A stretch of DNA of 64,000 nucleotides from Limnochordaceae bacterium. GTDB lineage: Bacteria > Bacillota > Limnochordia > Limnochordales > Geochordaceae. The first letter of the stretch is position 1, and each line of letters begins with the position of its first letter. A program made the translations under genes and the position numbers. The stretch covers positions 62,001 through 126,000 of the forward strand of contig JADBKR010000004.1 in the NCBI GenBank assembly GCA_014896295.1, read 5' to 3'. This document shows positions 5,878 to 49,208 of this stretch, piece by piece. A model generated the notes under the pieces. That model was not told the DNA's origin. It saw only the letters and a list, made by a program, of their open reading frames with translations, and made no database searches.

Positions 5878-6285
5878 CCTCCCTGAGGTGATACCGCCGG
5901 CAGGAGCGCAGGAAGTGGATCCACCACCCGAGGGGTTCGTCAGGGCAACGGGGGTTTGCGACGGTGGCCAGCGCTTCGCAGTGGCCGCAACTTGCTGGCA
6001 CGGCTGGCATTTCATGCCGTGTCCTGGCGGCACGCCTCATTGCATGCAACCGATGCACGTGCGTTGCAGCAGGAGATTTCCATCACGCATGGAAAGATTG
6101 ACCCATCAGCTGCCGGCGATCGGCGGGCAATCCGCAGCAAGGAATGGAGATCATGAGCAAAGGAAAGGGCTCCCGAAGACCTTCTCTCGCGCTCCGACGT
6201 TGTCCTCGCTGCGTTTGCCCGCGGCAAACGCCGGGGACAGTTCTTTCACATAGTAAACAAATAGGCGGCTCGTCGCTTCCCGCGG
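5878..6285. other. 408-bp intergenic region between divergent genes
   Basis: No gene seen. It holds short symmetric elements: a 10-bp palindrome TTGCATGCAA (6040-6049), a perfect 7-bp inverted repeat TTTCCAT/ATGGAAA with a 5-nt spacer (6077-6095), and an AT-rich patch before the ROK gene. Promoters for both flanking genes should lie here; no convincing -35/-10 pair was identified. Confidence 0.6.
6251..6263 (+). promoter_or_regulatory. possible ROK-regulator half-operator
   Basis: TAGTAAACAAATA, in an otherwise GC-rich stretch, lies just upstream of the ROK regulator gene. It resembles one arm of the TAAACAAACT-type operators bound by XylR-like ROK repressors. The second arm is not clear, so this is a weak suggestion of autoregulation. 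Confidence 0.25.
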
Positions 6286-7524
6286 GTGCTCGCCATGTCC
6301 ATGCAGGCCGGTGAAGCCTCCCTGGCCCGGCGCCTGCCTGTGGCCATGGCCGAGCCGAGAGCTCGGGAGGTGCTGGCCCTCCTTCACCGCCGCGGCCGGC
6401 TCACCCGTGCGGAGATCGCCCGCCTCACCGGGCAGTCGCAGGCTGCGGTCTCCCTGCTGGTGCGCACGTTGATCGAGGCCGGGCTGGTGCAGGAGTCCCT
6501 TGCCGCTCCACGAGGGCTGGGGCGGCCCGCTCACCATCTGGGCATCGCCCCGGGCGCCTGGAGCGTGCTCAGCTTCGAGGTGGTGGCCGGCCTGTTGCGC
6601 CTGGCGGTGGTGGCCGGGGACGGCAGCGTCCTCAACGCGACCGAACAGCCGCTGCCCACGGGCACGCTCGGCCTGCATGCCCTCATCCAGCGCATGTTGC
6701 GGATGGCCGCCGAGGCCGATCGGGGCTCCGCCGGGCCTCTTCTCGCCGCCTCCGTCTCCGTGAGCGGGGTGGTGCATCGTGGAGTCGTGGTGCTCTCGGC
6801 CGGGCTGGGGCTGCGCCAGGCCCCCGTCGCCGAGCCGCTCTCCGAGGAGCTGGGGGTGCCGGTCTGGCTGGTCAACGACATGGACGCCCGGGCCCTGGCG
6901 GAGTACCGCTATGGCGTGGGGCGAGGCGTGGACCACCTGGTATTGGTGGCCGTCGAGCCTTCCGGGATCGGTGCGGGCATCGTCCAGCAAGGCAGGCCGT
7001 TCGCCGGAGCCAGTGGAAGCGCCGGGGAGCTCGGGCACGTCACGGTCGAGCGCCACGGGCTCGCCTGTCCCTGCGGTAAACGCGGCTGCCTGGAGGTTTA
7101 CGGCAGTGAAAACGCCATCGTCTCACGCAGCGCGCACCTGCTGCGGCTGCAGCGAAGGCGCAGGCCGTTCGTGGAAAGCCCTACCGAAGGGTTCCACTAC
7201 GTGCGCCGCCAGGTGGAGGAGCTGTGGGCCCTGGCTGCCGCGGACGCGGGGATCCGGCGGATCTTCGAGGACGCGATGGACTACCTCGGGACGGCCGTGG
7301 CCAACCTGGTGACCCTCTTCGACCCCGAGCTGGTGATAGTGGCCGGGCATCTGATGAAGCTCTTGGGGCCATGGGGCATGACGCTCCTGACCCAACGGGT
7401 GCGGGAGGGGGCGTTCGATCCCGGGGCCGAGCACCGCAAGATCGTCGAGGCGGCCCTCGGTGAGGACAGCGGGATGCGGGGAGCGGCCTACCTGGCCGTG
7501 GATCGCATGCTGGCCGGCGATTGA
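6286..7524 (+). CDS. ROK-family transcriptional regulator (NagC/XylR type)
   Basis: DNA-binding sugar-responsive regulator. An N-terminal winged helix-turn-helix (LTRAEIARLTGQSQAAVSLL, about residues 35-60) is followed by a ROK sugar-kinase-like domain. The zinc motif CPCGKRGCLEVYGS is intact, preceded by GELGHVTVE. The catalytic-type Asp of kinase ROKs appears as VNDMDARALAEYRYG, so effector binding is retained, as in many ROK repressors. Starts are GTG 6286, ATG 6295 or ATG 6301; none has a strong ribosome site. It precedes a CUT1 sugar importer and oxidoreductase and probably controls them; the effector is likely the imported sugar or its phosphate (inference). Confidence 0.9.
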   Translation: MLAMSMQAGEASLARRLPVAMAEPRAREVLALLHRRGRLTRAEIARLTGQSQAAVSLLVRTLIEAGLVQESLAAPRGLGRPAHHLGIAPGAWSVLSFEVVAGLLRLAVVAGDGSVLNATEQPLPTGTLGLHALIQRMLRMAAEADRGSAGPLLAASVSVSGVVHRGVVVLSAGLGLRQAPVAEPLSEELGVPVWLVNDMDARALAEYRYGVGRGVDHLVLVAVEPSGIGAGIVQQGRPFAGASGSAGELGHVTVERHGLACPCGKRGCLEVYGSENAIVSRSAHLLRLQRRRRPFVESPTEGFHYVRRQVEELWALAAADAGIRRIFEDAMDYLGTAVANLVTLFDPELVIVAGHLMKLLGPWGMTLLTQRVREGAFDPGAEHRKIVEAALGEDSGMRGAAYLAVDRMLAGD

Positions 7525-7539
7525 GGGGCAGCGCCATGC

Positions 7540-7568
7540 GCCGGCGCGGCGATCGGCCTGTCGCCGGC
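7540..7568 (+). terminator. GC-rich hairpin downstream of ROK gene
   Basis: A 7-bp stem GCCGGCG/CGCCGGC with a 15-nt loop in the 172-bp gap between regulator and importer genes. There is no T-run, so termination is uncertain; it may reduce read-through. Confidence 0.3.
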
Positions 7569-7696
7569 GGCAGAGAGGGGGGGACCGGCGGGAGCGGCAA
7601 CGTCGGAGCATCAGGGAGGGGTTGGAGCGTGCCGGAAGTGACGGAGCACGAGTCGATAGGTGCGACGCGATAGCAATCACCGTGAGGAGGAGCGAC

Positions 7697-8956
7697 ATGC
7701 GAGGCACCTGGCTACGTTCGGCGTGGGTCATGGCCCTTTCGGCGTTGATCGTCGCAAGCCTGGCCACCGTGGCGGCGGCCGAGGTCACCACCATCCGCTG
7801 GCTGTACCCCGGGGGCGAGCAACCCGTCTCCCAGCAAACCTGGAAGAGCCAGATCGAGCGCTTTGCCAAGGTCCATCCGGAGATCAAGGTCGAGGTCATC
7901 GACGTGCCCTGGGATCTGGCCCACGACCGCATCGTCAACATGGTGATGGCCGGGGATGGCCCCGACCTCATCCAGATGGGCTCCCGCTGGATTCCCGAGT
8001 TCGCCGAGATGGGCGCCCTGATGCCCCTCGACCAGTACTTCGGCAAAGAAAAGATGAGCCTCTACTACCCGGGGCTGGTCAAGACGGTGACCTACAAGGG
8101 CAAGCTCTACGCCCTGCCCCGCGCCTACAGTACCCAGGCGCTGATCTACCGCACCGACCTGATCAAGAATCCGCCCAAGACCTGGGATGAGGTCGTGGCG
8201 ATCTCGAAGAAGATCCAGAGCGAGCACCCGGGCATGTACGGGTTGGGCATCGGCGGGGCCAACCACGTCAGCACCCTCTCCCAGTACTTCACCATCCTGT
8301 ACACGTACGGCGGCCGCGTCTTCGACGAGCAGGGCCGGCTCCAGCTGGACAGCCCCGAGGCCGTGGCCGCGTTGAAGCGCTACGTGGACTTCTACCGCAA
8401 GGACAAGATCGTACCCAACCCGCTGGAGTACAACCGGGAGCAACTGCCGGAGCTGTTCTCGGCCGGCCGGATCGCCATGTTCGTGAGCGGGCCCTGGGGC
8501 GGGCGCGCCCTCGGGCTGCCGCCGGACAACGACCGGATCCCCTACGCTTCGGCCCCCGTACCGGCGGGGCCTGCAGGCACCGCGACCGAGCTGGTCTCCG
8601 ACAGCACGGGCATCTGGGCCGGTACCCGCAACCTGAAGGCAGCCCTCACCTTCCTCGACTTCATCACCTCCCCTGAGGAACAGGTGCAAAGGGACCTCAT
8701 CGGCGGGCTGGTGCCGCAGGGACCGACCATGGCCACGCGGCCCGAGTTCACCAAGAACCCGTTCTTCAAGACCTTCATCGACATGGCACCGCACGGAGTC
8801 CCGCAGCCGCAGCCGACGCTGTGGGAGCCGTTCCAGGAGGTCATCGTCAACATGGTGCAGTCGGCCACCCTTGGCATGGTGACGCCGGAGCAAGCCGTGA
8901 AACAGGCCGTTCAGGAGCTCCGGGCCAAGGGCCTGGTGCCGGCGGAGAAGAAGTAG
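7697..8956 (+). CDS. CUT1 sugar ABC transporter substrate-binding protein
   Basis: Extracytoplasmic sugar-binding protein (SBP_bac_1 family, 419 aa). An N-terminal signal peptide ends near ATVAAAE; no lipobox cysteine is seen, so it is probably released or periplasmic. Typical features are the early strand TTIRWLYPGG, DVPWDLAHDRIVNMVMAGDGPDLIQMG, LYALPRAYSTQALIYRTDL, PKTWDEVV and LFSAGRIAMFVSGPW. The start ATG 7697 follows GAGGAGGA. It is the first gene of a binding protein-permease-permease-oxidoreductase operon behind the ROK regulator. The ligand is unknown; there is no ATPase gene nearby, so a shared MsmK-type ATPase elsewhere is likely. Confidence 0.93.
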   Translation: MRGTWLRSAWVMALSALIVASLATVAAAEVTTIRWLYPGGEQPVSQQTWKSQIERFAKVHPEIKVEVIDVPWDLAHDRIVNMVMAGDGPDLIQMGSRWIPEFAEMGALMPLDQYFGKEKMSLYYPGLVKTVTYKGKLYALPRAYSTQALIYRTDLIKNPPKTWDEVVAISKKIQSEHPGMYGLGIGGANHVSTLSQYFTILYTYGGRVFDEQGRLQLDSPEAVAALKRYVDFYRKDKIVPNPLEYNREQLPELFSAGRIAMFVSGPWGGRALGLPPDNDRIPYASAPVPAGPAGTATELVSDSTGIWAGTRNLKAALTFLDFITSPEEQVQRDLIGGLVPQGPTMATRPEFTKNPFFKTFIDMAPHGVPQPQPTLWEPFQEVIVNMVQSATLGMVTPEQAVKQAVQELRAKGLVPAEKK

Positions 8957-37669: not shown

Positions 37670-37720
37670 CCCCCCAACCGGGACGATAGGGGTCCCGCCG
37701 CGCGACGGCACCCCGGGGGG
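37670..37720 (+). promoter_or_regulatory. structured leader that can mask the next ribosome site
   Basis: CCCCCC (37670-37675) can pair with GGGGGG (37715-37720), which is the only purine-rich stretch in front of the GTG start at 37720. A smaller CGGGAC/GTCCCG hairpin fits in between. Translation of the regulator may therefore be limited unless the structure opens; this is inference from pairing only. Confidence 0.3.
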
Positions 37721-38382
37721 TGAGCGGTGTTCGGCCGGCTCGTGACCGCATCCGCATCGTGGTCGTGGAGGCGCACGAGGTGTTCCGTACGGGGCTACGG
37801 CTCATCCTCGAGCGGCAGCCCGACATGGAGGTGGTCGCCGACCTGCCGGATGCCGGTGACCTGCAGGCGGTGGTCGACGGCTTCAGGCCCGACGTGGTCC
37901 TCTTCGGCACGTGTCACCGTGCCCGGCAGACCCAGGCCATCGAATGGCTCTCGCGTCGCCGCCCTTCGGTTGCCACGCTGGTCTTGATGGTGCACCCGGA
38001 GCTGAGCCTGCTCCGGGAGCTGGTTCGCGCCGGGACGTGCGGCTTGTTCCTCGCCAGGAGCCCCGCCAGCGAGCTGTGCAGGGCGGTGCGCACGGTGGCG
38101 GGCGGCGCGCTCTACGTCGACCCGGATGTGGCGCAGGTCTGCGGGCTCTCGCCCCAGCTGCCGGGCCCACGAGGCCGTGCCGAGCTTTCCGATCGGGAAT
38201 GGCACGTATTGCGGCTCCTCGCCCTCGGCTACTCGCGCCAGGAGATAGCCAGGCGCGTGGGCGTCAGCGTGAAGACGGTCGATACGTACCGTAGCCGCAT
38301 TTGCGAAAAGCTCGGCCTGCGCGAGCGGTCCGACCTGGTACGGTATGCGCTGTGCAGGGGCCTCGTACAGGAGGAGTGCTGA
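37720..38382 (+). CDS. LuxR/NarL-type regulator with non-canonical receiver domain
   Basis: DNA-binding regulator, 220 aa. The C-terminal LuxR HTH (residues 156-211: LSDREWHVLRLLALGYSRQE and the recognition region VGVSVKTVDTYRSRI) is well conserved. The N-terminal receiver-like domain lacks the phosphorylation set: the usual acidic pair is EA (17-18), the phospho-Asp position in PDVVLFGTCH is Gly63, and the usual Thr and Lys are also replaced. It is therefore probably not controlled by a histidine kinase, and none is encoded nearby. It precedes another regulator and the nos genes and probably controls them. GTG 37720 is the likely start. Confidence 0.87.
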   Translation: MSGVRPARDRIRIVVVEAHEVFRTGLRLILERQPDMEVVADLPDAGDLQAVVDGFRPDVVLFGTCHRARQTQAIEWLSRRRPSVATLVLMVHPELSLLRELVRAGTCGLFLARSPASELCRAVRTVAGGALYVDPDVAQVCGLSPQLPGPRGRAELSDREWHVLRLLALGYSRQEIARRVGVSVKTVDTYRSRICEKLGLRERSDLVRYALCRGLVQEEC

Positions 38383-38387
38383 CGAGC

Positions 38388-39720
38388 GTGCCGTTTTGGT
38401 CCGATGAGCGCCTGGAGCACCTGGAAGCGGCGCTCGACGCCCTCGACGATGCGGTCATGGTGGTCGACGAGGATCTCTGCATCGTCGCGTTCAACCGCGC
38501 CGCCGAAAAGCTGACCGGATTCACCCGCCAGGAGGCCCTGGGGAGCCGCTGTTTCGAGGTGTGCGCCGGGCGTTTTTGCCGCAGGGTGTGCGACATCGAG
38601 GGGTTGTTCGCCACCCGGCGGCCGCCGGAGGACTTCGAAAGCCCGGTACTCTCCAAGGACGGGCGCGTGCGTCTGGTCCGAGTCCGTACCGTCCCGCTCA
38701 CGGGGCGGGGCAACCGCATCCTGGCCGCGGTCCGCATCTTGCGGGACGTCACCGCAGAGCTCGGAAGTCGGCCGGGGGTGGACCAACGGGAACGGGATCG
38801 GTGCAAGGGCTACGGGCGCCTGGTCGGGGCCAGTCGCCCCATGCTCCGGCTGTACGAGGCGCTCGAGGCGCTGCGCGACAGCGAGTGGCCGATTCTCGTG
38901 CAAGGCCCCCGGCACGGAGACCGATTGGGTAGCCCTCACTCTCCACGAGCTCGGCATCCGGTCGGCAGGCCCCTTCGTGCCCGTGCTCACCGAAGGCCTC
39001 CCCCCTGTCACAGTGCGGGAGCGGCTGCTCGGGGATCGGGACCACTCCGAGGCCCATGGCCATGCGCCGGTGGGCGCGCTGCATCTCGCTCATGAAGGCA
39101 CGCTGTTCGTGGAGGACATCGCGGACCTCCCCGCCGATTGCCAGGCCGCGCTGGCGCGCCACCTCGACGCCTGGCGCCCCGGTCAATGGCCCGACGTTCG
39201 GATCGTCGCCGGCACGCACCACCGCCTGGAGGATCTGGTCGTCACGGGCAGCTTCGACAAAGGCCTGGCTGCAGTGTTGCAGCAGCGGCGGGTCGTGGTG
39301 CCGCCTCTCGTGGACCGGCTGGACGACATCCCCCTGCTGGCGGAGAAGATCCTGGCCGACATGACTCCGCAGGCCCAGCCCCTCCCCCAGCTGACGGGTG
39401 CCGCCCTGGCCCGCCTCATGTCGTACCCCTTCCCCGGCAACGTTCGGGAACTGGAAAGGATCCTGAGGGCCGCTGCCATCCTGGCTCAGGGACCGGCCAT
39501 CGATGCGCCCCACCTGGTTCTCCCCCACCCTCCTTCGCCCGCTTCCCCCGACCCGGCGCTTGCGCCCAACGCAGGGGCGCTTTCGCGCGAGCAGCTTCTG
39601 CAAGCGCTCGAAGCCCACCACTGGCAGATCGGCCAGTGCGCCCGGGCGCTCGGCATCAACCGGACCACGCTCTGGCGGCGCATGAAGCGGCTCGGCTTAC
39701 AGCGACCCCGGGCTTCGTGA
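38388..39720 (+). CDS. PAS / degenerate AAA+ / Fis-type HTH regulator, frameshifted
   Basis: Three-part regulator, about 443 aa after correction. Residues 10-125 are a PAS domain with a Cys set C55-x3-C59-x4-C64-x3-C68. A sigma-54-activator-like AAA+ domain follows (VGASRPMLRLYEALEAL; GTLFVEDIADLPADCQAAL; YPFPGNVRELERILRAAA). Its Walker A equivalent is PGTETDWVA, without the GK pair, and no GAFTGA loop is seen, so it may not remodel sigma-54 RNA polymerase. The C-terminus is a Fis-type HTH (HHWQIGQCARALGINRTTLW). The frame breaks in the C5 run near 38906-38910. GTG 38388 follows CAGGAGGAG. Probable nos regulator by position. Confidence 0.78.
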
Positions 39721-39901: not shown

Positions 39902-40405
39902 GTGAAGTCGAGCCTCACCCGGACCGCGGGCCGTAAGCGCCCCGCCCTCAGGCGGGCAAAGCTAATCGGGATCACGGCCATCATCGCGGCGATCATGGCC
40001 GTCAGCTGGCTGTTTCCCTCTCTTGCCGGCTCCGCGGGAGGACAGGAGCGGGAGTTCGTCATCACCGCCCGGCAGTTCGCGTTCGATCCTCCTCGCATCT
40101 ACGTCAACCTCGGGGACCGGGTCACGTTGAGGGTGCGCTCGCTCGACATCACCCACGGCCTCTACCTCGACGCCTACGGGCTCAACATCCGAGTGCCGCC
40201 GATGGAGGAAGGCGTCGTCTCTTTCGTGGCCGATCGCCCGGGTAAGCTGCGCTACCGGTGCTCCGTCATCTGCGGGCCGTTGCACCCGTTCATGGTGGGA
40301 GAGATCGTCGTGCAACCCAACCGGCTCTTCCACACGGGCGGTGTGCTGGCCGCCATCGTCGGCCTCGGGGCACTTGCTTACGGCTGGTGGAGAAAGGGCG
40401 GTTGA
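39902..40405 (+). CDS. membrane-anchored CuA-type cupredoxin (first)
   Basis: Predicted electron carrier on the outer face of the membrane, 167 aa. A membrane helix (residues 19-42) is followed by a cupredoxin fold and a second helix near 147-163. All CuA ligands known from cytochrome oxidase subunit II and NosZ are present: H85 (DITHGL), C120 and C124 in CSVICGPLHPFM, H128 and M131. There is no other oxidase subunit nearby. GTG 39902 follows GGGAGG. It is the first gene of the nos operon and may pass electrons between the polyferredoxin protein and NosZ (inference). An alternative role is copper handling. Confidence 0.85.
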   Translation: MKSSLTRTAGRKRPALRRAKLIGITAIIAAIMAVSWLFPSLAGSAGGQEREFVITARQFAFDPPRIYVNLGDRVTLRVRSLDITHGLYLDAYGLNIRVPPMEEGVVSFVADRPGKLRYRCSVICGPLHPFMVGEIVVQPNRLFHTGGVLAAIVGLGALAYGWWRKGG

Positions 40406-40416
40406 ACATAAGCGCC

Positions 40417-41892
40417 ATGGGACCTGCCGGAACGTCCGAAGCCGCTGCCATCACAGCCCGGCCGCTGCCGCGAGGTGTGTTCAAACGGGATCTCCTCCGG
40501 CGCTGGCCGCGCCTGTCGCGGCTGTTGCATCAACGCTGGTTCCAGTTCGCCTTGATGTGGCCCGGGCTGCTGGCCTTCGTCGTCATCATCGCGAGCGGCC
40601 TTTTCGGTATCCCCATCGGCGCGAAAAACTTCGCCGTCGTCTTCGTCTGGATCGTCTGGTGGGCCCTGCTCATCATGCTGCTCGTCCCCTTCGGGGCCCG
40701 GGTCTGGTGCACCGCCTGCCCCATCCCCTCCCTGGGCGAGTGGCTGGCTCGCCGCCGGTTCATCGGCCATCACGCCGGCGCTCCCTGGAGCCTCAACCGG
40801 CGCTGGCCGAGGCGGCTGCGCAATCTGTGGCTCGCCAACTTCGGGTTCCTTTCCATCGCGCTCTTCAGTGCTATCGTGACCACCAGCCCGGTGGTGACCG
40901 GCGCCCTGCTCCTGGGGCTGTTCGTGCTCGCCATCGTCATGCACCTGGTTTACGAGCGGCGCGCCTTCTGTCGCTACCTCTGTCCCGTGGGGGGCTTCCT
41001 CGGCCTCTACTCCATGGTTGCGCCCGTGGAGCTCCGGCGGCGCAGCGCAGAGACCTGCCTGGCATGCAAGTTCAAGTCGTGCTTCCGTGGCAGCACCGTC
41101 GAGAGCCTCGCAGTAGGCGGGCAGGGCGGATACCCGTGTCCCATGTCGGAGTTCCCGGGCGCCCCCATGGAGCGCAACAACTACTGCATCCTGTGCACCG
41201 AGTGCATCAAGGCCTGCCCGTACGACAACATCACCATCAACGCTCGCCCCTTCGGTCTCGACCTGTACGTCCAGAAGGGGCGCAAGATCGACGAAGCCTA
41301 CAAGGCGTTCATCATGCTGGGCAGCGCTCTCGCTTACTCGCTGGTGATGCTCGGGCCCCACGGGTTCTTGAAGGATTGGGCCAGCCTGAGGCAACCGGAG
41401 GGGTTCATCGTGTACGCCGCCGGGTTCTTGTTGACCACGCTCGTGGTCGGCCCCCTGCTCCACCTGGTAGCCACGGTGCTGGGCCGCTGGATTGCGGGGC
41501 GTTTGGGGCATCGCATCCCGCTCAAGGAGCTCTTCGTCGACGCTTCGTACGCGCTGGTGCCCTTCGGGCTGATGGCCTGGATCGCCTTCAGCCTCTCTTT
41601 CGTGCTGCCCAACCTCTCTTACGCGATCCCCACCATCTCGGACCCCTTCGGTTGGGGTTGGAACCTGCTCGGCACCGCATCCTATCCCTGGACGCCCTAT
41701 GTGCCGGGGTGGGTGCCCTTCCTGCAGTTGCCCGTGCTGCTCGTAGGGCTCGGATGGGGCGTGCTGAGCGGCTTTCGCATCTTACGGTCCGACTTCCAGG
41801 GCGACACCCGGGCCGCGGCCCTGGCGTCCGTACCGTTCGCCGTGTACCTGACCGGATTGGCAGAGCTTTTCCTTTGGCTGTACCTCGGCTGA
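40417..41892 (+). CDS. NosR/NapH-like membrane polyferredoxin
   Basis: Integral membrane iron-sulfur protein, 491 aa, probably carrying electrons from the quinol pool toward NosZ. Several membrane helices flank cysteine motifs: C98-x2-C101-P and C185-x3-C189-P (the paired CP motifs of NapH/NosR), C214-x2-C217-x4-C222 with C241, and C257-x2-C260-x2-C263-x3-C267-P, a ferredoxin-type [4Fe-4S] site. The N-terminal periplasmic FMN-binding domain of classical NosR is absent. ATG 40417 is used; TTG 40402, overlapping the upstream stop, has a nearer ribosome site. It is flanked on both sides by CuA-type cupredoxin genes. Confidence 0.88.
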   Translation: MGPAGTSEAAAITARPLPRGVFKRDLLRRWPRLSRLLHQRWFQFALMWPGLLAFVVIIASGLFGIPIGAKNFAVVFVWIVWWALLIMLLVPFGARVWCTACPIPSLGEWLARRRFIGHHAGAPWSLNRRWPRRLRNLWLANFGFLSIALFSAIVTTSPVVTGALLLGLFVLAIVMHLVYERRAFCRYLCPVGGFLGLYSMVAPVELRRRSAETCLACKFKSCFRGSTVESLAVGGQGGYPCPMSEFPGAPMERNNYCILCTECIKACPYDNITINARPFGLDLYVQKGRKIDEAYKAFIMLGSALAYSLVMLGPHGFLKDWASLRQPEGFIVYAAGFLLTTLVVGPLLHLVATVLGRWIAGRLGHRIPLKELFVDASYALVPFGLMAWIAFSLSFVLPNLSYAIPTISDPFGWGWNLLGTASYPWTPYVPGWVPFLQLPVLLVGLGWGVLSGFRILRSDFQGDTRAAALASVPFAVYLTGLAELFLWLYLG

Positions 41893-41914
41893 CAGCACCG
41901 GGGGAGGACAGGCG

Positions 41915-42346
41915 GTGGGACGGTTGGCAACTCGCGCAGACGGCAGGAAAAGCGCTCGTCAGGAGGTGATGGCCGGCATCCTGGTCTTCCTGGCCGTCGT
42001 CGGCGCGCCCCTCGCCATCTTCGGGTACGAAAAGGCGGTGCGACCGGCGCTCGCGGCGCCCAACGAGTTCCACATCATCATCCGCATCTTCGAGGATGGC
42101 GGATTCCAGCCGTCCTACCTCGAGGTGCGCCGGGGAGACCGGGTACGGATCAAGCTTACCAGCTACGACGTAACGCACAGCTTCCAGCTCCTCGACTTCG
42201 GTATCGACACGGGCCCCATCTTCCCGGGGACCTCGCGGGTCGTGGAGTTCGTCGCCGATCGGGCAGGGACGTTCCCGTTCCAGTGCAACGTGCGCTGCAG
42301 CCCGCTGCACCGCAACATGGTGGGCCAGCTCGTCGTCAAACCGTGA
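41915..42346 (+). CDS. membrane-anchored CuA-type cupredoxin (second)
   Basis: Second CuA-type carrier, 143 aa. An N-terminal helix (residues 19-37) anchors the domain outside; there is no C-terminal helix. Ligands are H88 (DVTHSF), C124 and C128 in CNVRCSPLHRNM, H132 and M135. It resembles the NosZ C-terminal domain (FCSALHQEM) more than the first cupredoxin does in spacing and brevity. GTG 41915 has GGGGGAGG 7 nt upstream. Thirty-seven bp separate it from nosZ. Likely a direct electron donor to NosZ, or a copper donor to its CuA site; neither can be decided from sequence. Confidence 0.86.
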   Translation: MGRLATRADGRKSARQEVMAGILVFLAVVGAPLAIFGYEKAVRPALAAPNEFHIIIRIFEDGGFQPSYLEVRRGDRVRIKLTSYDVTHSFQLLDFGIDTGPIFPGTSRVVEFVADRAGTFPFQCNVRCSPLHRNMVGQLVVKP

Positions 42347-42383
42347 GTCCGCAATCTTGACATTGGGGGGACGTGGAAAGGCC

Positions 42384-44222
42384 ATGCGTCGAAGTCATGT
42401 GAAACACGTAGTCTGGGGCCTGGCGGCGCTCGTGCTCGTCACCCTCCTGTCCGGCTTCTCCTTGTTCGGCGGCAAGGAGGCCCCGGGCGGGGATGCGAGC
42501 AAGGCGCTCGTCCCACCGGGTAAGCTGGACGAGTACTATCTCTTCGCTTCGGGCGGGCACTCGGGGCAGGTATTCGTCTACGGGGTGCCGTCTATGCGGC
42601 GGATTCGCACGATTCCCGTCTTCACGCCCGACCCCGCCTGGGGGTACGGCTACGACGAAGAGACCAAGGCGATGCTGGGAGGGCTCACCTGGGGAGACGT
42701 TCACCACCCGGCGCTATCGGAGACCAACGGCGAGTATGACGGGCGGTGGCTGTTCGTCAACGACAATGCCAACAACCGGGTGGCCCGGATCAACCTCAAG
42801 ACGTTTTACACCGAACAGATCCTCGGGCCCATTCCCAACATCATGGGCCCCCACTCCGCCACCTTCGTGACGCCCAACACGGAGTACCTGTTCATGGGGT
42901 CCCGGTTTGCCACTCCCATTCCCGTGGGCACTTACGTTCCCATCCAGGAGTTCAAGAGCAAGTACTACGGCGTGCTCGCGGGCGTGAAGATCGATCCCAA
43001 GTCGGGACACATGGAACTCGCCTGGGAGCTCTTGCTACCGCCGTGGCACTTCGATCTCGGCGACGCGGGCAAGAAGGTCAGCGACGGCTGGTACTTCCTC
43101 ACGACGTACAACACCGAGGAAGCGTACGAGACCCTGGAGGTCGGCGCCTCCGCTCGGGACCGGGACTTCATCGTGATGGTCAACTGGAAAGAGGCGGAGA
43201 AGGCGGCTGCTGCCGGCAAGTTCCAGACCATCGCCGGCGCGAAGGTGATCGACCCGGTCAAGGTGCCGGGTATCGTCTACCTCATGCCCGTGGCCAAGAG
43301 CCCTCACGGCGTGGACGTCGCGCCGGACGGCCGGCACATTGCGGCGGCAGGCAAGCTCCAACCGACCGTGACCGTCTACGACTTCGAGAAGATCAAGTCG
43401 GCCATCGAGGCCAAGAAGTTCGCCGGCGAGGAGCGCGGGCTTCCCATCCTGGACTATGAGGCGGTGCGGGTCGCCGAGGTGCCCGTGGGGCTCGGGCCGC
43501 TCCACACCCAGTTCGACGACAAGGGGTATGCCTACACCAGCCTCTTCATCGACTCCGCCATCGTCAAGTGGAAGATCGGCGAGTGGAAAGTCATCGACAA
43601 AGTGGACGTCCATTACAACGTCGGCCACCTGTGCGCCGCCGAGGGTGACACCACCTCCCCGGACGGCAAGTGGCTGGTGAGCCTCAACAAGATGGCCAAG
43701 GACCGCTTCCTGTCGGTCGGCCCCAGCCACCCCGAGAACCTGCAGCTCATCGATATCTCGGGAGACAAGATGAAGCTCGTCTACGAAGCGCCCGTGGATC
43801 CGGAGCCGCACTACGCCCAGATGATCAAGGCAGACAAGATCAAGCCCGAGGTGGTCTTCTACAAGGACGTGAAGCGCCCCAACTCCGTCTGGGATCCGAA
43901 GGATGCCAGGGTCGTCCGCAAGGGCAACCGCGTGGACGCGTACATCGTCGCGATTCGCAGCCGGTTCATCCCGGACCGGGTCGAAGTCAACGAGGGTGAC
44001 GACGTCTACTTCCACCTGACCAACAACGACATGGACCAGGACATCACCCACGGCTTCGGCATCCCGCTCTACAACGTGGACATGCAGGTCGAGCCGGGCG
44101 AAACCAAGACGATTCACGTGAAGGCTACCAAACCCGGAGTGTACCCGTTCTACTGCACCAACTTCTGCTCCGCGTTGCACCAGGAGATGCAGGGGTGGTT
44201 CCTGGTCAAACCCAAGAAGTGA
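42384..44222 (+). CDS. nosZ: nitrous oxide reductase NosZ, clade II (Sec-exported)
   Basis: Terminal reductase converting N2O to N2 outside the cytoplasmic membrane, 612 aa. A Sec-type signal or anchor helix (residues 8-27) without a twin-arginine motif marks clade II. Seven CuZ histidines are seen: H107 and H108 (GDVHHPALS), H157 (GPHSATF), H308 (SPHGVDV), H374 (LHTQF), H415 (YNVGHL) and H476 (EPHYAQM). The C-terminal cupredoxin domain carries CuA ligands H556, C591, C595, H599 and M602. No frameshift. ATG 42384 follows GGAAAGG closely; TTG 42357 is possible. Accessory genes for copper loading follow downstream. Confidence 0.97.
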   Translation: MRRSHVKHVVWGLAALVLVTLLSGFSLFGGKEAPGGDASKALVPPGKLDEYYLFASGGHSGQVFVYGVPSMRRIRTIPVFTPDPAWGYGYDEETKAMLGGLTWGDVHHPALSETNGEYDGRWLFVNDNANNRVARINLKTFYTEQILGPIPNIMGPHSATFVTPNTEYLFMGSRFATPIPVGTYVPIQEFKSKYYGVLAGVKIDPKSGHMELAWELLLPPWHFDLGDAGKKVSDGWYFLTTYNTEEAYETLEVGASARDRDFIVMVNWKEAEKAAAAGKFQTIAGAKVIDPVKVPGIVYLMPVAKSPHGVDVAPDGRHIAAAGKLQPTVTVYDFEKIKSAIEAKKFAGEERGLPILDYEAVRVAEVPVGLGPLHTQFDDKGYAYTSLFIDSAIVKWKIGEWKVIDKVDVHYNVGHLCAAEGDTTSPDGKWLVSLNKMAKDRFLSVGPSHPENLQLIDISGDKMKLVYEAPVDPEPHYAQMIKADKIKPEVVFYKDVKRPNSVWDPKDARVVRKGNRVDAYIVAIRSRFIPDRVEVNEGDDVYFHLTNNDMDQDITHGFGIPLYNVDMQVEPGETKTIHVKATKPGVYPFYCTNFCSALHQEMQGWFLVKPKK

Positions 44223-44329: not shown

Positions 44330-44972
44330 ATGGGCCGATGGATGTTCGCCGGCACGCTGGACCGGCGCGCTCGGTTGGCGATGTTACTGGCCGCTTTGTG
44401 CGTGGCGCTTTCCTTCCTGGGGCCCTTGTGGTCGCTACGACTCGGGGCTCCCCAGTACCCGGAGGGGCTCAAGCCTGCACGTCTACGCCCACAAACTCGG
44501 CGGGCGGATTGACGTCATCAACAGCCTCAATCACTACATCGGGATGAAGCCCATCGACGCCGCCGACTTCCCCGAGTTTCGCTACCTGCCGCCGGCTTTC
44601 GTCGCGGCGGCGGCGATCATGTTGGTGGCAGCGCTCACGCGGCGCCGCTGGCTCGCCGGGGCCCTCGTCACGGCCAGCCCTGCGCTCCTCCTGCTGCTGT
44701 ACGACCTTTACCGCTGGCTGTACCGGTACGGGCACGACCTCGATCCGAAGGCTCCCATTCGCATCGATCCCTTCATGCCCCCCGTCATCGGATGGAACCG
44801 CCTGGCCAACTTCACCACCCTCAGCTACTTCAACTGGGGGGCCGTCCTGTTCCTGGTGGGCATGGCGCTCGTCTTCTACGCCTGGATCACGTCGGACCCC
44901 GCCCGCCAGTCTCGCAGCGCGTCCCTCACCGAGCACCTGCACGCCCCGAAGGCAGGAGCGACAAAGCCGTGA
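44330..44972 (+). CDS. NosB-like nos-cluster membrane protein, frameshifted
   Basis: Integral membrane protein of unknown function found beside nosZ in clade II clusters (called NosB in Wolinella); this assignment rests on position, topology and the segment HVYAHKLGGRIDVINSLNHY. About four hydrophobic segments: MLLAALCVALSFLGPLWSL, the region around AFVAAAAIMLVAAL, ASPALLLLLYDLYRWLY and FLVGMALVFYAWI. The frame breaks near 44470, where removing one C joins the two halves into 213 aa. ATG 44330 follows GACAGGAGG. It overlaps nosD by GTGA. An intact gene would be expected in a working cluster, so a sequence error is likely. Confidence 0.72.
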
Positions 44973-46372
44973 GGCGCTGGGCCACCGTAGCGTGTCTCGC
45001 CCTGGCGGCGCTCGCCCCCGGCTTCGATCGCGCCGGCGCCGCTGTGCTGGAGGTCGGCAGCGCCGCGACCTACCCCACCATCTCTGCTGCTTTGAACGCC
45101 GCGTCCAGCGGAGACGTCATCCGGGTCCACCCCGGCGTCTACCGGGAAAACGTGGTCATCGACAAGCGCGTGGTGCTGGAGGGGCTCCCCGGGGCCGTGG
45201 TGGACGGCGGCCCCGAAGGCGACGTGATCACGATCAAGGCCAACGGTGTCACGGTACGGGGCATGACCGTCGTGGGAGGCGGGCACCGCCTTTGGCGGGA
45301 CGAATCGGGCATCAAGGTACTGGGCAACGACAACGTGATCGAGCGAAACACGCTGCGTCGCGTGCTCTTCGGGATCCACGTGTGGGGCGGTCATGCCAAC
45401 GTCATCCGGCACAACCGCATCGAAGGCCTGGCCCAACTGATCGAGCACGACCGAGGTGACGGCATCCGCCTCTACAACTCCAACGGCAACGTCGTTGAAC
45501 ACAACCACATCATCACGCCGCGCGACGGGATCTACGTCGAGTTCGCCTCCCATAACCGGATTGCGTCCAACCGCATCGAGAGAGGCCGCATCGGGTTGCA
45601 CTACATGTTCTCCGACGACAACGTCTTCGAAGAGAACGTCTTCGTCGGCAACGGCGTGGCCTCGGCCATCATGTACTCCAAGCGGCTCGTGGTGCGGCGC
45701 AACGTCTTCGCCAAGAGCTACGGTTACGGGGCTTACGGGCTCTTCTTGAAAGACGCCGACGGGGCCATGGTCGAAGACAACCTGGTGCTCGCCAACGAGA
45801 CCGGCCTCTCCCTCGACTTCGCGGTCCGGTGCACGCTGCGCAACAACTTCGTGGCGGCCAACGAGATAGCCGCGCGCATCCTGGCGAGTTCTCAGGACAA
45901 CGTCTTCGTCGACAATACCTTCGCGGCCAACGGGGAAGGCGTCTACCTCAGCCCCGGCAACCACCGGCAGCGATGGGACGACGGCGTCGGCCGGGGCAAC
46001 TACTGGAGCCAGTACCGCGGGTACGACCTCGACGGCAACGGGGTCGGCGACGTCCCGTTCGACGCCAGCGAGGTCTTCGGCCACCTGGTCGAGAGCTACC
46101 CCGAGCTCAAGCTGTTTTTCCAGAGCCCGGCGGTGGCGGCCGTGGCCCTGGCCGAGCGCGCCTTTCCTCTGCTCGACCGGCCTCAGGCGCTCGACCGCTA
46201 CCCGGTGATGCGGCCTCGCCCGGTGCCCCGGGATCTCCTGGATCGCCTGGGCGCCTCTGAAGCGCAGCAACCCGTGGCGTGGAGTGCGACCGTCTCCGTG
46301 GCAGCGTGTGTGGCCGGCTTCGGGATCCTTCGGGCGGGAGGACGCAGGCGGAGAGGGGGACGACGGGGATGA
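44969..46372 (+). CDS. nosD: NosD, copper-site maturation beta-helix protein
   Basis: Exported protein, 467 aa, that with NosF and NosY forms the ABC-type machine needed for CuZ assembly. A signal peptide (about residues 1-25) precedes a CASH/parallel beta-helix domain with repeating Asn- and Gly-rich turns (GNDNVIERNTLRR, HANVIRHNRIEG, NGNVVEHNHIIT, HNRIASNRIERG, DDNVFEENVFVG). YWSQYRGYDLDGNGVGDVPF is a family signature. The C-terminus has a membrane helix and an Arg-rich tail, found in NosD proteins that anchor in the membrane. GTG 44969 overlaps the upstream stop; the end overlaps nosF. Confidence 0.95.
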   Translation: MRRWATVACLALAALAPGFDRAGAAVLEVGSAATYPTISAALNAASSGDVIRVHPGVYRENVVIDKRVVLEGLPGAVVDGGPEGDVITIKANGVTVRGMTVVGGGHRLWRDESGIKVLGNDNVIERNTLRRVLFGIHVWGGHANVIRHNRIEGLAQLIEHDRGDGIRLYNSNGNVVEHNHIITPRDGIYVEFASHNRIASNRIERGRIGLHYMFSDDNVFEENVFVGNGVASAIMYSKRLVVRRNVFAKSYGYGAYGLFLKDADGAMVEDNLVLANETGLSLDFAVRCTLRNNFVAANEIAARILASSQDNVFVDNTFAANGEGVYLSPGNHRQRWDDGVGRGNYWSQYRGYDLDGNGVGDVPFDASEVFGHLVESYPELKLFFQSPAVAAVALAERAFPLLDRPQALDRYPVMRPRPVPRDLLDRLGASEAQQPVAWSATVSVAACVAGFGILRAGGRRRRGGRRG

Positions 46373-47346
46373 ACACGTCCCATGAGGATGTTCCCCTGCT
46401 CCACGTGGAGGGGGCGTCCAAGCGTTACGGCGAGGTCGTGGCGCTCGACCACGTGTCCCTCACGGTGGGGCCCGGCGAGATCGTGGCCCTGGTGGGACCC
46501 AACGGCGCCGGCAAGAGCACCCTGCTCAAGGTGCTGGCCGGTCTGACCTGGCCATCCGAAGGGAGAGCCTGGGTGCTGGGGCACCCCGCCGGGTCGCTGC
46601 CGGCCAAGCAACAACTCGGCTTCCTGCCCCAACGGGTCTTCCTCGGGGAGACCATGGAGCTTTGGGAAGTCCTGGAGTTTTTCGCCACGCTCCGGTTGCC
46701 GGGCCTGCGGGACGCGTCCGGCGTGATCACCGCCGCCTTGGAGGCGGTGGGGCTGGCTGGCCTGGAGACTCGCCTGGTGCGGGAGCTGTCCGGGGGTATG
46801 CTCCAGCGCCTCGCGCTCGCGCAGGTGCTGCTCGGCGAGCCGAGGGTGCTGCTGCTCGACGAGCCCGCGCTCAACCTCGACGTCGAAGGCCGCCAGCGCC
46901 TGCGCGATATCCTGGCCCAGGTACGGCAGCGGGGCGGGTGCGCGCTGGTCTCGAGCCACCTGCTCGAGGATGCCATGCACAGCGCCGACCGCATCGTCAT
47001 CCTGGAGTCGGGACGGGTCGTGGCGGACGAGTCGGCGCACACCGTGGCCGGGCGCCTCGAGAGTCGTCTCCACGTGACCGTCGACGATGTCGCGGGAGCC
47101 CGGGGATACCTGGAGCGGCTCGGGGTACGGGTCGGCACCAACTCGGGCGGACAGCTGGTGCTGTACTGCACGGCGGACCGGGCCCTGGCGCTCTTGAGCG
47201 AACTCCACCGCGCCGGGTACGCCCCGCGCGAATTCCGGACCGGCCGGACGAGCCTCGAAGAACTCCTCACTGCCTACCTGGGCCGGGTCCAGCCGGCCGC
47301 ATCCCCTCAGGCCGGCGAGGTACCAACCAACGGAGAGGAGAGGTGA
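46369..47346 (+). CDS. nosF: NosF, ABC ATPase for nitrous oxide reductase maturation
   Basis: Cytoplasmic ATPase, 325 aa, powering the NosDFY complex. Walker A GPNGAGKSTLLK, Q-loop QRVFLGETMELWEVLEFFA, signature LSGGMLQRLALAQVLLG, Walker B VLLLDEPALNLDVE and the switch His in SSHLLEDAMH are present. A C-terminal extension of about 90 residues is typical of NosF. ATG 46369 is coupled to the nosD stop. Confidence 0.95.
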   Translation: MNTSHEDVPLLHVEGASKRYGEVVALDHVSLTVGPGEIVALVGPNGAGKSTLLKVLAGLTWPSEGRAWVLGHPAGSLPAKQQLGFLPQRVFLGETMELWEVLEFFATLRLPGLRDASGVITAALEAVGLAGLETRLVRELSGGMLQRLALAQVLLGEPRVLLLDEPALNLDVEGRQRLRDILAQVRQRGGCALVSSHLLEDAMHSADRIVILESGRVVADESAHTVAGRLESRLHVTVDDVAGARGYLERLGVRVGTNSGGQLVLYCTADRALALLSELHRAGYAPREFRTGRTSLEELLTAYLGRVQPAASPQAGEVPTNGEER

Positions 47347-47352
47347 GCGGCT

Positions 47353-47841
47353 GTGAGAGGGCGGGGGAAGCTCACCGTGATCCTGGCGGGTATCGTGCTG
47401 GCGGCCGGCGCCGTCGCCGTCGGGCTGGCGACGCGCTCCCAGGGCCCACCGCCTCCGGCCCAGGTGCTCTACGGAGTGGACGATTGCGTCGAGTGCGGCA
47501 TGGTCTTGACCGACCCGCGCTCGGCCGCGCAGATGATCACCACCGACCGGGTCGTCAAGTTCTGCGACGTCGGCTGCCTGGTGGTCTACCAACTCCGCCA
47601 CCATCCCGATTGGAAAGGCGTACGCGCGGCCTACGTACCCGACTGGCACACCCAGCAGTGGCTGGACGCCCGTACCGCCTGGTGGGTCACCACGCATCAC
47701 AAGACTCCCATGCTGTACGGCCTGGTCACCCTTCGGGATCGTGGAGAGGCGGAGGCGATGGCCCGGGAGCACGGCGGCCGGGTCATGACCTATGACGAGG
47801 TGGCCGCGATGGACCTCCTGCGAGAGGAGGCGCGGCGGTGA
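47353..47841 (+). CDS. nosL: NosL copper chaperone (canonical site)
   Basis: Membrane-anchored copper chaperone that delivers copper for NosZ maturation, 162 aa. The N-terminal helix (residues 7-26) has no lipobox Cys, unlike Gram-negative NosL lipoproteins. The copper motif C45-x2-C48-G-M50 (CVECGM) is canonical, and a second pair, C71-x3-C75 in FCDVGCLVVY, follows. GTG 47353 is 6 bp after nosF. It overlaps nosY by ATG-type coupling at its end. A second, divergent NosL-like gene lies downstream. Confidence 0.94.
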   Translation: MRGRGKLTVILAGIVLAAGAVAVGLATRSQGPPPPAQVLYGVDDCVECGMVLTDPRSAAQMITTDRVVKFCDVGCLVVYQLRHHPDWKGVRAAYVPDWHTQQWLDARTAWWVTTHHKTPMLYGLVTLRDRGEAEAMAREHGGRVMTYDEVAAMDLLREEARR

Positions 47842-48665
47842 GAGCCGCTACGCTGCGAGACGTCGCCCTCTGGGAGTTCCGGGCGGTGAGCCGGGCGCGG
47901 TGGTCCGGGGTTTTCGCCATCGTGTTCGCCGCACTGGCGCTTTCCCTTTCCTACTTCGGGATGTTCCACACCGGGTTCAGCGGGTTCGTCGGGTTCGTCA
48001 GGACATCGATGAGCCTTCTCAGCGTCATCACCCTGGTGCTGCCGCTGGTTGCCCTTGCGGTCGGTTCGCTGCTCTTTTCGGGAGAGCGGGAGGGCCACCA
48101 CCTGATACTCGCCCAGCCCGTCACACGCAGCGAGGTGGTGGTGGGCCGCTACCTGGGCGTGGGTGCGGCGCTGGCGGGTTCGACCCTGGTCGCCTTCGGC
48201 GCCGCGGGTTTCGTCATCGCCATGCGGGCGGGCACCGAGGGATGGCTGCGTTATCTGGGGATCGTCGGGCTATCGGTGCTGCTCGTCGCCATTTCCCTGG
48301 GAATAGGGGTGCTCCTCGGGATCACCTCCCGGGATCGTAGCCGGGCCCTCGGCGGCGCCATCATCGTGTGGGGCCTGCTCGTCGTGCTGTACGACCTGGT
48401 CGCGATGGGGATCAGCGTGATGCTGAGCGGCGAGGTCGTCCGGCCGCTCCTGCTGTCGATGGTGATGGCCAACCCGGTCGACCTGGTGCGCGTGCTCGGC
48501 CTCTTGCTCATCGGAGCCAGGGCGAGCCTGGGTGCCCCCGGCGCCGTCCTGTCGGCGACCCTCAGCGACGTCGGCGGTTGGGTCCTCTTGCCCCTCGCCG
48601 TGGGGCTGTGGTTGGTGCTGCCGCTGTTCGTGGCGTGTCGCAGCTTCGAACAGCAGGACTTCTGA
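47838..48665 (+). CDS. nosY: NosY, ABC permease for nitrous oxide reductase maturation
   Basis: Integral membrane subunit of the NosDFY complex, 275 aa, ABC-2 family. About six hydrophobic segments are seen, starting at GVFAIVFAALALSLSYFGMF; LLFSGEREGHHLILAQPVTR and GRYLGVGAALAGSTLVAFG are the usual NosY landmarks, and it ends SFEQQDF. The start overlaps nosL by 4 bp. Its usual order after nosF is here interrupted by nosL. Confidence 0.94.
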   Translation: MRAATLRDVALWEFRAVSRARWSGVFAIVFAALALSLSYFGMFHTGFSGFVGFVRTSMSLLSVITLVLPLVALAVGSLLFSGEREGHHLILAQPVTRSEVVVGRYLGVGAALAGSTLVAFGAAGFVIAMRAGTEGWLRYLGIVGLSVLLVAISLGIGVLLGITSRDRSRALGGAIIVWGLLVVLYDLVAMGISVMLSGEVVRPLLLSMVMANPVDLVRVLGLLLIGARASLGAPGAVLSATLSDVGGWVLLPLAVGLWLVLPLFVACRSFEQQDF

Positions 48666-48692: not shown

Positions 48693-49208
48693 ATGCCAAC
48701 GCTTCGTGATCGACGCATACTGGTGCTCGGGCTCGCCATCCTCGTGCTGGGGGTGACCGGTGGCGCCCTGGCGGTGGGCGAGGCAGTCCGGCCCCCGGAG
48801 ATCGTGCCCGGGGAAAGCCGCTGTGCCAACTACCCGTGCAAGATGATCATCAAGGACGTCGAACACTCGGCAGGCCTCGTGACGAGCGCAGGGGAGTTCA
48901 CGTTTTGCGACATCGGCTGCCTGCTGGTCTACATGAAGACCAAGGTGGCCGAAAACGAGGAGATCCTGGGAGCGTTCGTGCACGACTGGCCCAGCGGGGA
49001 GTGGACCGACGCCCGCACCGCCACGTACGTGCGCACGGAGATCCGCACGCCGATGCGCTACGGGCTCATCGCTTTCGCAAGCGCCGACGAGGCACAAAGC
49101 TACCGTGCGCAAAACGGCGGCGAACTGCTCGACCTCCAACAGGCCACTCACTACGTCATGACCGAACGGGCCAAGCGCATGGGAAGCGCTACCGAGCACG
49201 GCAAGTAG
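48693..49208 (+). CDS. second NosL-like protein with altered copper motif
   Basis: NosL paralogue, 171 aa, with an N-terminal membrane helix (residues 9-29). The copper motif differs from the canonical CxxCGM: C44-x4-C49-K-M51 (CANYPCKM). The second pair C72-x3-C76 (FCDIGCLLVY) and the ARTATYVRTEIRTPMRYG segment match the first NosL closely. It may hold copper with different affinity or serve another site such as the CuA cupredoxins (inference). ATG 48693 lies 27 bp after nosY. Last gene of the island, followed by a strong terminator. Confidence 0.88.
   Translation: MPTLRDRRILVLGLAILVLGVTGGALAVGEAVRPPEIVPGESRCANYPCKMIIKDVEHSAGLVTSAGEFTFCDIGCLLVYMKTKVAENEEILGAFVHDWPSGEWTDARTATYVRTEIRTPMRYGLIAFASADEAQSYRAQNGGELLDLQQATHYVMTERAKRMGSATEHGK

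Follow-up and report, generated by a model that had tools for sequence, protein, structure and literature searches.

Two predicted CuA cupredoxins flanking a polyferredoxin as a probable electron-supply module for clade II NosZ in a Limnochordaceae bacterium

Immediately upstream of nosZ, the gene for nitrous-oxide (N2O) reductase, a 64,000-nucleotide stretch of the genome of a Limnochordaceae bacterium (contig JADBKR010000004.1, positions 62,001 to 126,000; hereafter the window) encodes two stand-alone cupredoxins, each with the full ligand set of a CuA centre, and between them a polytopic membrane polyferredoxin. The host is a heat-loving bacterium of the deep subsurface. We think it probable that this trio is a membrane module supplying NosZ with electrons, which would pass from quinol through iron–sulfur (Fe-S) clusters to one CuA site, then to a second, and finally to NosZ. 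An earlier note on this DNA had proposed such a relay, suggesting that it is haem-free or, alternatively, that one cupredoxin loads copper into NosZ. The relay through CuA cupredoxins emerges as the best supported of these ideas, given the recurrence of the trio and gene fusions in two other genomes, but ‘haem-free’ is only hinted at by a relative, the host itself having a cytochrome bc complex and several c-type cytochromes. All four genes lie where the note had placed them:

39902..40405, + strand: cupredoxin 1, with an N-terminal transmembrane helix, a CuA domain and a C-terminal transmembrane helix
40402..41892, + strand: NapH/NosR-like polytopic polyferredoxin, starting at TTG 40402 or ATG 40417
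41915..42346, + strand: cupredoxin 2, with one N-terminal transmembrane helix and a CuA domain; directly 5' of nosZ
42384..44222, + strand: NosZ, clade II / Sec-dependent; its open reading frame (ORF) reaches back to TTG 42357

The ligand sets first read in the cupredoxins, H85, C120, C124, H128 and M131 in cupredoxin 1 and H88, C124, C128, H132 and M135 in cupredoxin 2, were borne out. Both proteins share a His followed by C-x3-C-x3-H-x2-M, and the ligand columns do not vary in alignments of each cupredoxin with its partner and 30 NosZ CuA domains. Pfam Cupredoxin_1 and COX2 score above cut-off in both, NCBIfam NosZ models match the CuA region (best E 1.9e-11 and 5.6e-15), and the PDB sequence matches are a Thermus CuA domain and NosZ (best E 7.5e-15 and 5.9e-12). 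In AlphaFold models the cupredoxin domains mostly have a predicted local distance difference test score (pLDDT) above 90, and Foldseek matches them to CuA domains and NosZ, the match to NosZ being partly built in because the folding alignments contained NosZ CuA domains. Hydrophobic helices stand at both termini of cupredoxin 1 and at only the N-terminus of cupredoxin 2. With a cupredoxin fold and this motif, both are predicted CuA proteins, and the match is far beyond chance.

A third CuA site, in NosZ, also keeps its ligands, and seven NosZ His residues align to the CuZ region of the solved NosZ 9f8x (positions read from the alignment). The protein scores 910.5 bits on TIGR04246 (cut-off 625) and 498.8 on the Tat-type model TIGR04244, below its cut-off of 625, and is by sequence a clade II, Sec-dependent enzyme; its closest sequences are from Bacillota, at up to 66% identity. 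The gene is as first described, but ATG 42384 is a better start than the TTG at which the ORF begins. The polyferredoxin, which scores 44 bits (E 1.9e-11) against the NapH family TIGR02163, falls below the 213-bit cut-off and so is related to NapH/NosH without being a member. As in those proteins, two Cys-Pro motifs near the membrane accompany two [4Fe-4S] motifs; here the first is CxxCP, not CxxxCP, and the second is CxxxCP. C103/C106, C190/C194, C219, C227, C246, C262, C268 and C272 are invariant in 12 homologues. No FMN-binding (flavin mononucleotide) family, and hence nothing like the periplasmic covalent FMN domain of NosR, was detected in any island protein scanned, and a sequence search found no PDB relative of the polyferredoxin.

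No CXXCH motif occurs in any reading frame of either strand between 37 and 50 kb of the window, which sets the island apart from its relatives. In a collection of 84,980 species, the 80 nosZ loci nearest to this one were compared: a CXXCH ORF ends within 1.5 kb upstream of nosZ in 75 and lies within 7 kb upstream in 79, the lone exception beginning inside nosZ; a further CuA ORF is present in the fetched flank of none of the 80. In Bacillus the upstream ORF is nosC, which encodes a lipoprotein cytochrome c (PMC3475470). The island has no cytochrome c gene directly before nosZ, and cupredoxin 2 occupies the slot that nosC fills in Bacillota relatives. This substitution, together with the compact same-strand gene order, speaks for the relay.

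The absence of cytochrome c thus holds for the island, but in the genome as a whole there are genes for a bc complex and for at least five c-type cytochromes, and for this reason haem independence is unproven for the host. Its bc locus (L207) comprises cytochrome b6, subunit IV, a Rieske protein and a di-haem cytochrome c, with a lipoprotein cupredoxin gene (L207 3363-3995) preceding cytochrome b6, and five PF13442 cytochromes c score over or near the cut-off. Elsewhere in the genome, a multihaem cytochrome locus (L197, about 6147-8453) carries seven and three CXXCH motifs in two ORFs.

The trio also recurs outside this species. Among 398 genomes sampled across the phylum, close polyferredoxin homologues (E below 1e-90) occur in a complete genome of the same species (G245; 3.31 Mb, 97.8% DNA identity to the window over the island region) and in G078, G101 and G168, which represent three further lineages and whose polyferredoxins are 41-43% identical to that of the window; CuA-type cupredoxins adjoin the polyferredoxin in every carrier. 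A single 661-aa ORF of G101 joins cupredoxin 1 to the polyferredoxin, and the second CuA domain of G168 forms a fusion with a cytochrome c domain. These fusions suggest electron transfer between polyferredoxin and cupredoxin 1 and between the second CuA domain and an acceptor, and because of them we favour electron transfer over copper loading. NosZ was not found alongside the module in G168 or G101, and in G101 the module stands beside a di-haem cytochrome c peroxidase (L141 8642-9700; CCP_MauG, E 8.6e-61), suggesting that one module may feed different acceptors. In G078, the contig with NosZ breaks off within a cupredoxin gene and shares an overlap of 406 bases, 96.6% identical, with the contig that carries the module; because this overlap is not exact, linkage of NosZ and module is likely rather than certain.

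The earlier note had also suggested looking for this gene order, and for cytochrome c genes, in other genomes. The trio does recur, and in G078 (78% complete) neither a PF13631 cytochrome b nor a PF13442 cytochrome c was found, but G168, like the window's genome, has a PF13631 cytochrome b. That cytochrome b was not found in G101 either (97% complete). PF13442, the only c-type cytochrome model used genome-wide, does not reach every c-type cytochrome. The gaps in G078 and G101 favour, without proving, a module independent of the bc complex, and a haem-free relay is only hinted at, by G078 with its NosZ and module.

Within its own class (73 genomes) the module occurs in this species only, and the classes of G078, G168 and G101, with 1-3 genomes each, contain no further carriers. 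Among 29 genomes with a close nosZ, none has a polyferredoxin homologue as close as those of the carriers, and two have distant ones. A search of a plasmid collection with the polyferredoxin gave distant matches only (9 records, none covering 80%), and two plasmid neighbourhoods of such matches list no cupredoxin or nos genes. Weaker homologues across the phylum (about 27-33%) have different neighbours, and in the neighbourhoods inspected the picked ORFs contain no CuA motif, ORF picking being crude in these GC-rich loci. Distant homologues (L147-L156) often have a small membrane protein encoded upstream; several of these small proteins contain an HAGH-like stretch and are possibly metal-binding partners. 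In titles and abstracts on nos clusters, a coverage that mostly leaves out subscription journals, we found no description of the order cupredoxin, polyferredoxin, cupredoxin, nosZ.

In a tree of CuA domains, cupredoxins 1 (four rows) and cupredoxins 2 (three rows) form sister groups (support 96/80 and 97/79) inside one clade (96/91) next to the CuA domains of NosZ, and COX2-type CuA is set apart by a long branch. The simplest reading of these sequences is that the pair arose by an old duplication before the carrier lineages split. The G168 cytochrome fusion is placed elsewhere, on a long branch, and its CuA domain may therefore have another origin. Long branches and an alignment of 103 columns limit the certainty of this tree.

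In the relay that we favour, the polyferredoxin would take electrons, probably from menaquinol, through its Cys motifs and [4Fe-4S] clusters. They would then arrive at the periplasmic CuA site of cupredoxin 1, which has two anchoring helices, and cupredoxin 2, anchored by a single helix, would hand them to the CuA site of NosZ and thence to CuZ. The cupredoxins would in this way stand in for the flavin (FMN) domain of NosR, or for what NosG and the NosC cytochromes provide in a Wolinella-type module. We infer quinol oxidation, the metal content of the relay, the direction of its electrons and the order of the two cupredoxins. Several observations weigh against this scheme. By the positive-inside rule the Fe-S clusters seem to be cytoplasmic, leaving the electron path across the membrane unexplained, as it is for NosR and NapH, and no quinone site was identified. 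The second cupredoxin of G101 has Leu where the Met ligand is expected. NosZ and module in G078 are joined only across two inexactly overlapping contigs, in a genome only 78% complete. The bc complex, the several c-type cytochromes and the bc-linked lipoprotein cupredoxin of the host could feed NosZ or cupredoxin 2, and we found no report of N2O-dependent growth for the species. More tentatively, quinol, polyferredoxin and three CuA centres in series might constitute an N2O chain free of c-type haem and independent of the bc complex, with some hosts, such as G078, perhaps lacking cytochrome c.

The same host complement underlies an alternative that we consider unlikely, in which the cupredoxins are carriers but electrons run from quinol through the bc complex to the di-haem cytochrome c or the bc-linked cupredoxin, then to cupredoxin 2 and NosZ, and the polyferredoxin has a minor or maintenance role. 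The gathering of all the bc components and the lipoprotein cupredoxin in one locus, the other c-type cytochromes of the genome and the normal tie of Bacillota nos clusters to bc complex and cytochrome c (PMC3475470, PMC13274427) are consistent with it. Such a route would nevertheless leave unexplained both the placement of a polyferredoxin between the cupredoxins and its fusion with cupredoxin 1 in G101, where bc cytochrome b was not detected, and in G078, which combines NosZ and the module, neither a cytochrome b nor a CBB3-type cytochrome c was detected.

CcoG has been discussed as a cupric reductase, and proteins with a full CuA ligand set are typically electron carriers rather than chaperones. 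These points frame the quite improbable case of copper loading, in which the polyferredoxin would act like CcoG and reduce Cu(II), and copper would reach the CuA site of NosZ by way of one or both cupredoxins. Similarity of the polyferredoxin to CcoG is weak (TIGR02745, 19.9 bits, E 2.9e-4), and the island sits among nosDFYL maturation genes; the score is far under the 316.7-bit cut-off, however, and a CcoG-like role was judged unlikely. The copper-loader idea of the earlier note is further weakened, and copper loading becomes less likely, because the genome has two SCO1/SenC homologues outside the island, two NosL and NosDFY, and because the trio occurs in G168 and G101, where nosZ was not found. 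The complete CuA ligand set itself argues for carriers, and the second CuA domain of G168 is fused to cytochrome c. It is also conceivable, but very improbable, that the module works in a different reaction, for instance ferrous iron oxidation or uptake in the manner of FtrABCD or the feeding of a peroxidase, and adjoins nosZ by chance. FtrD is a polyferredoxin. A cupredoxin, FtrB, is encoded with FtrD in the FtrABCD iron transport system (PMC11966278), and the G101 module adjoins a peroxidase. The putative copper ligands described for FtrB are D118/H121 (PMC11966278) rather than those of CuA, and that system includes an iron permease, whereas no Ftr1 permease or FtrA homologue was found among ten island proteins scanned; an FtrABCD-like iron system was judged unlikely. 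Module and NosZ, moreover, occur together in two lineages, and the module genes of the island are packed tightly against nosZ.

The electron-supply module that we propose has parallels in several known systems. Wolinella succinogenes is reported to need NosG-C1-C2-H, NosB and a bc complex (Hein et al. 2017, as cited in PMC13274427). Its clade II cluster (cited in PMC13274427 and PMC11539149) shares with the island a Sec-type NosZ, a NosB-like protein, NosDFYL and a NapH-like membrane Fe-S protein beside small membrane-bound redox proteins, but has NosG and the cytochromes NosC1/C2 where the island has CuA cupredoxins without CXXCH. NosR, a membrane flavo-Fe-S protein proposed as electron donor to NosZ (PMC7660919), is likewise a polytopic Fe-S protein linked to NosZ, and its N-terminal periplasmic redox domain recalls the cupredoxin fusion of G101; that domain carries FMN, whereas the module has a CuA cupredoxin and no detected FMN domain. 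The Bacillota nosC-nosZ-nosB-nosDYF clusters (PMC3475470; loci L029-L108) contain the nearest NosZ and comparable downstream genes, but place a lipoprotein cytochrome c before nosZ instead of a CuA cupredoxin and polyferredoxin. The CuA domains of NosZ and COX2 (for example, Thermus ba3) share the fold and all five ligands with the island cupredoxins, which differ in being stand-alone, paired and flanking a polyferredoxin, and which the tree places nearer NosZ than COX2.

The earlier note had ended the island at 44222, but the run of + strand genes continues beyond nosZ to 49208, and two regulator genes precede it:

37720..38382, + strand: LuxR-type response regulator, read from the sequence; 5' of the island
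38301..39720, + strand: PAS and NtrC-family regulator, its frame broken by the loss of 2 bases at 38910; domains named by reading the sequence
44330..44972, + strand: NosB-like membrane protein, its frame split by an extra base at 44474
44969..46372, + strand: nosD, periplasmic maturation protein (TIGR04247, 401.9 bits, cut-off 300); start inferred
46369..47346, + strand: nosF, ABC ATPase, from a profile scan; name from context
47353..47841, + strand: nosL copy 1 (PF05573)
47838..48665, + strand: nosY, ABC-2 permease, from a profile scan; name from context
48693..49208, + strand: nosL copy 2 (PF05573)

The island genes, from cupredoxin 1 to the second nosL, abut or are separated by gaps within about 110 bases, which suggests a single operon. 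Promoter and terminator scans of the window performed no better than chance and gave no clear island promoter. The name NosB-like rests on position and on similarity to the ORF that follows nosZ in relatives (compare PMC3475470, PMC13274427). The complete same-species genome lacks the extra base at 44474 and has the PAS/NtrC regulator unbroken (473 aa); both frameshifts are therefore of assembly type, and the split at 44474 is probably an assembly error. The two upstream regulators may control the island in response to redox state or N2O. A Cys-rich stretch is present in the PAS/NtrC-type protein, and a response regulator and kinase-like protein also accompany the module in G168 and NosZ in G078. 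FNR-like palindromes (TTGATNNNNATCAA, with at most 2 mismatches) number 13 in the window (for example, 45224-45237), above all 100 shuffles (mean 4.3); none of the 13 lies just upstream of the nos island.

For Geochordaceae isolates, of the class Limnochordia, PMC11456536 reports a nitrous-oxide reductase, a bc complex and two cytochrome c oxidases in Carboxydochorda subterranea L945T, and also an absence of growth with nitrite. The species of the window appears to be Carboxydochorda subterranea or one very near it, and because it or a near-identical species appears to be in culture, a test of the relay looks practical. Little is understood of how NosR- or NapH-type Fe-S proteins convey electrons from quinol to NosZ, and a compact module with CuA in place of flavin and cytochrome c, whose fusions hint at the order of its parts, offers a simple system for that question. 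If the proposed relay is correct, nosR, nosGH or nosC alone would be insufficient for judging the capacity of a genome to reduce N2O.

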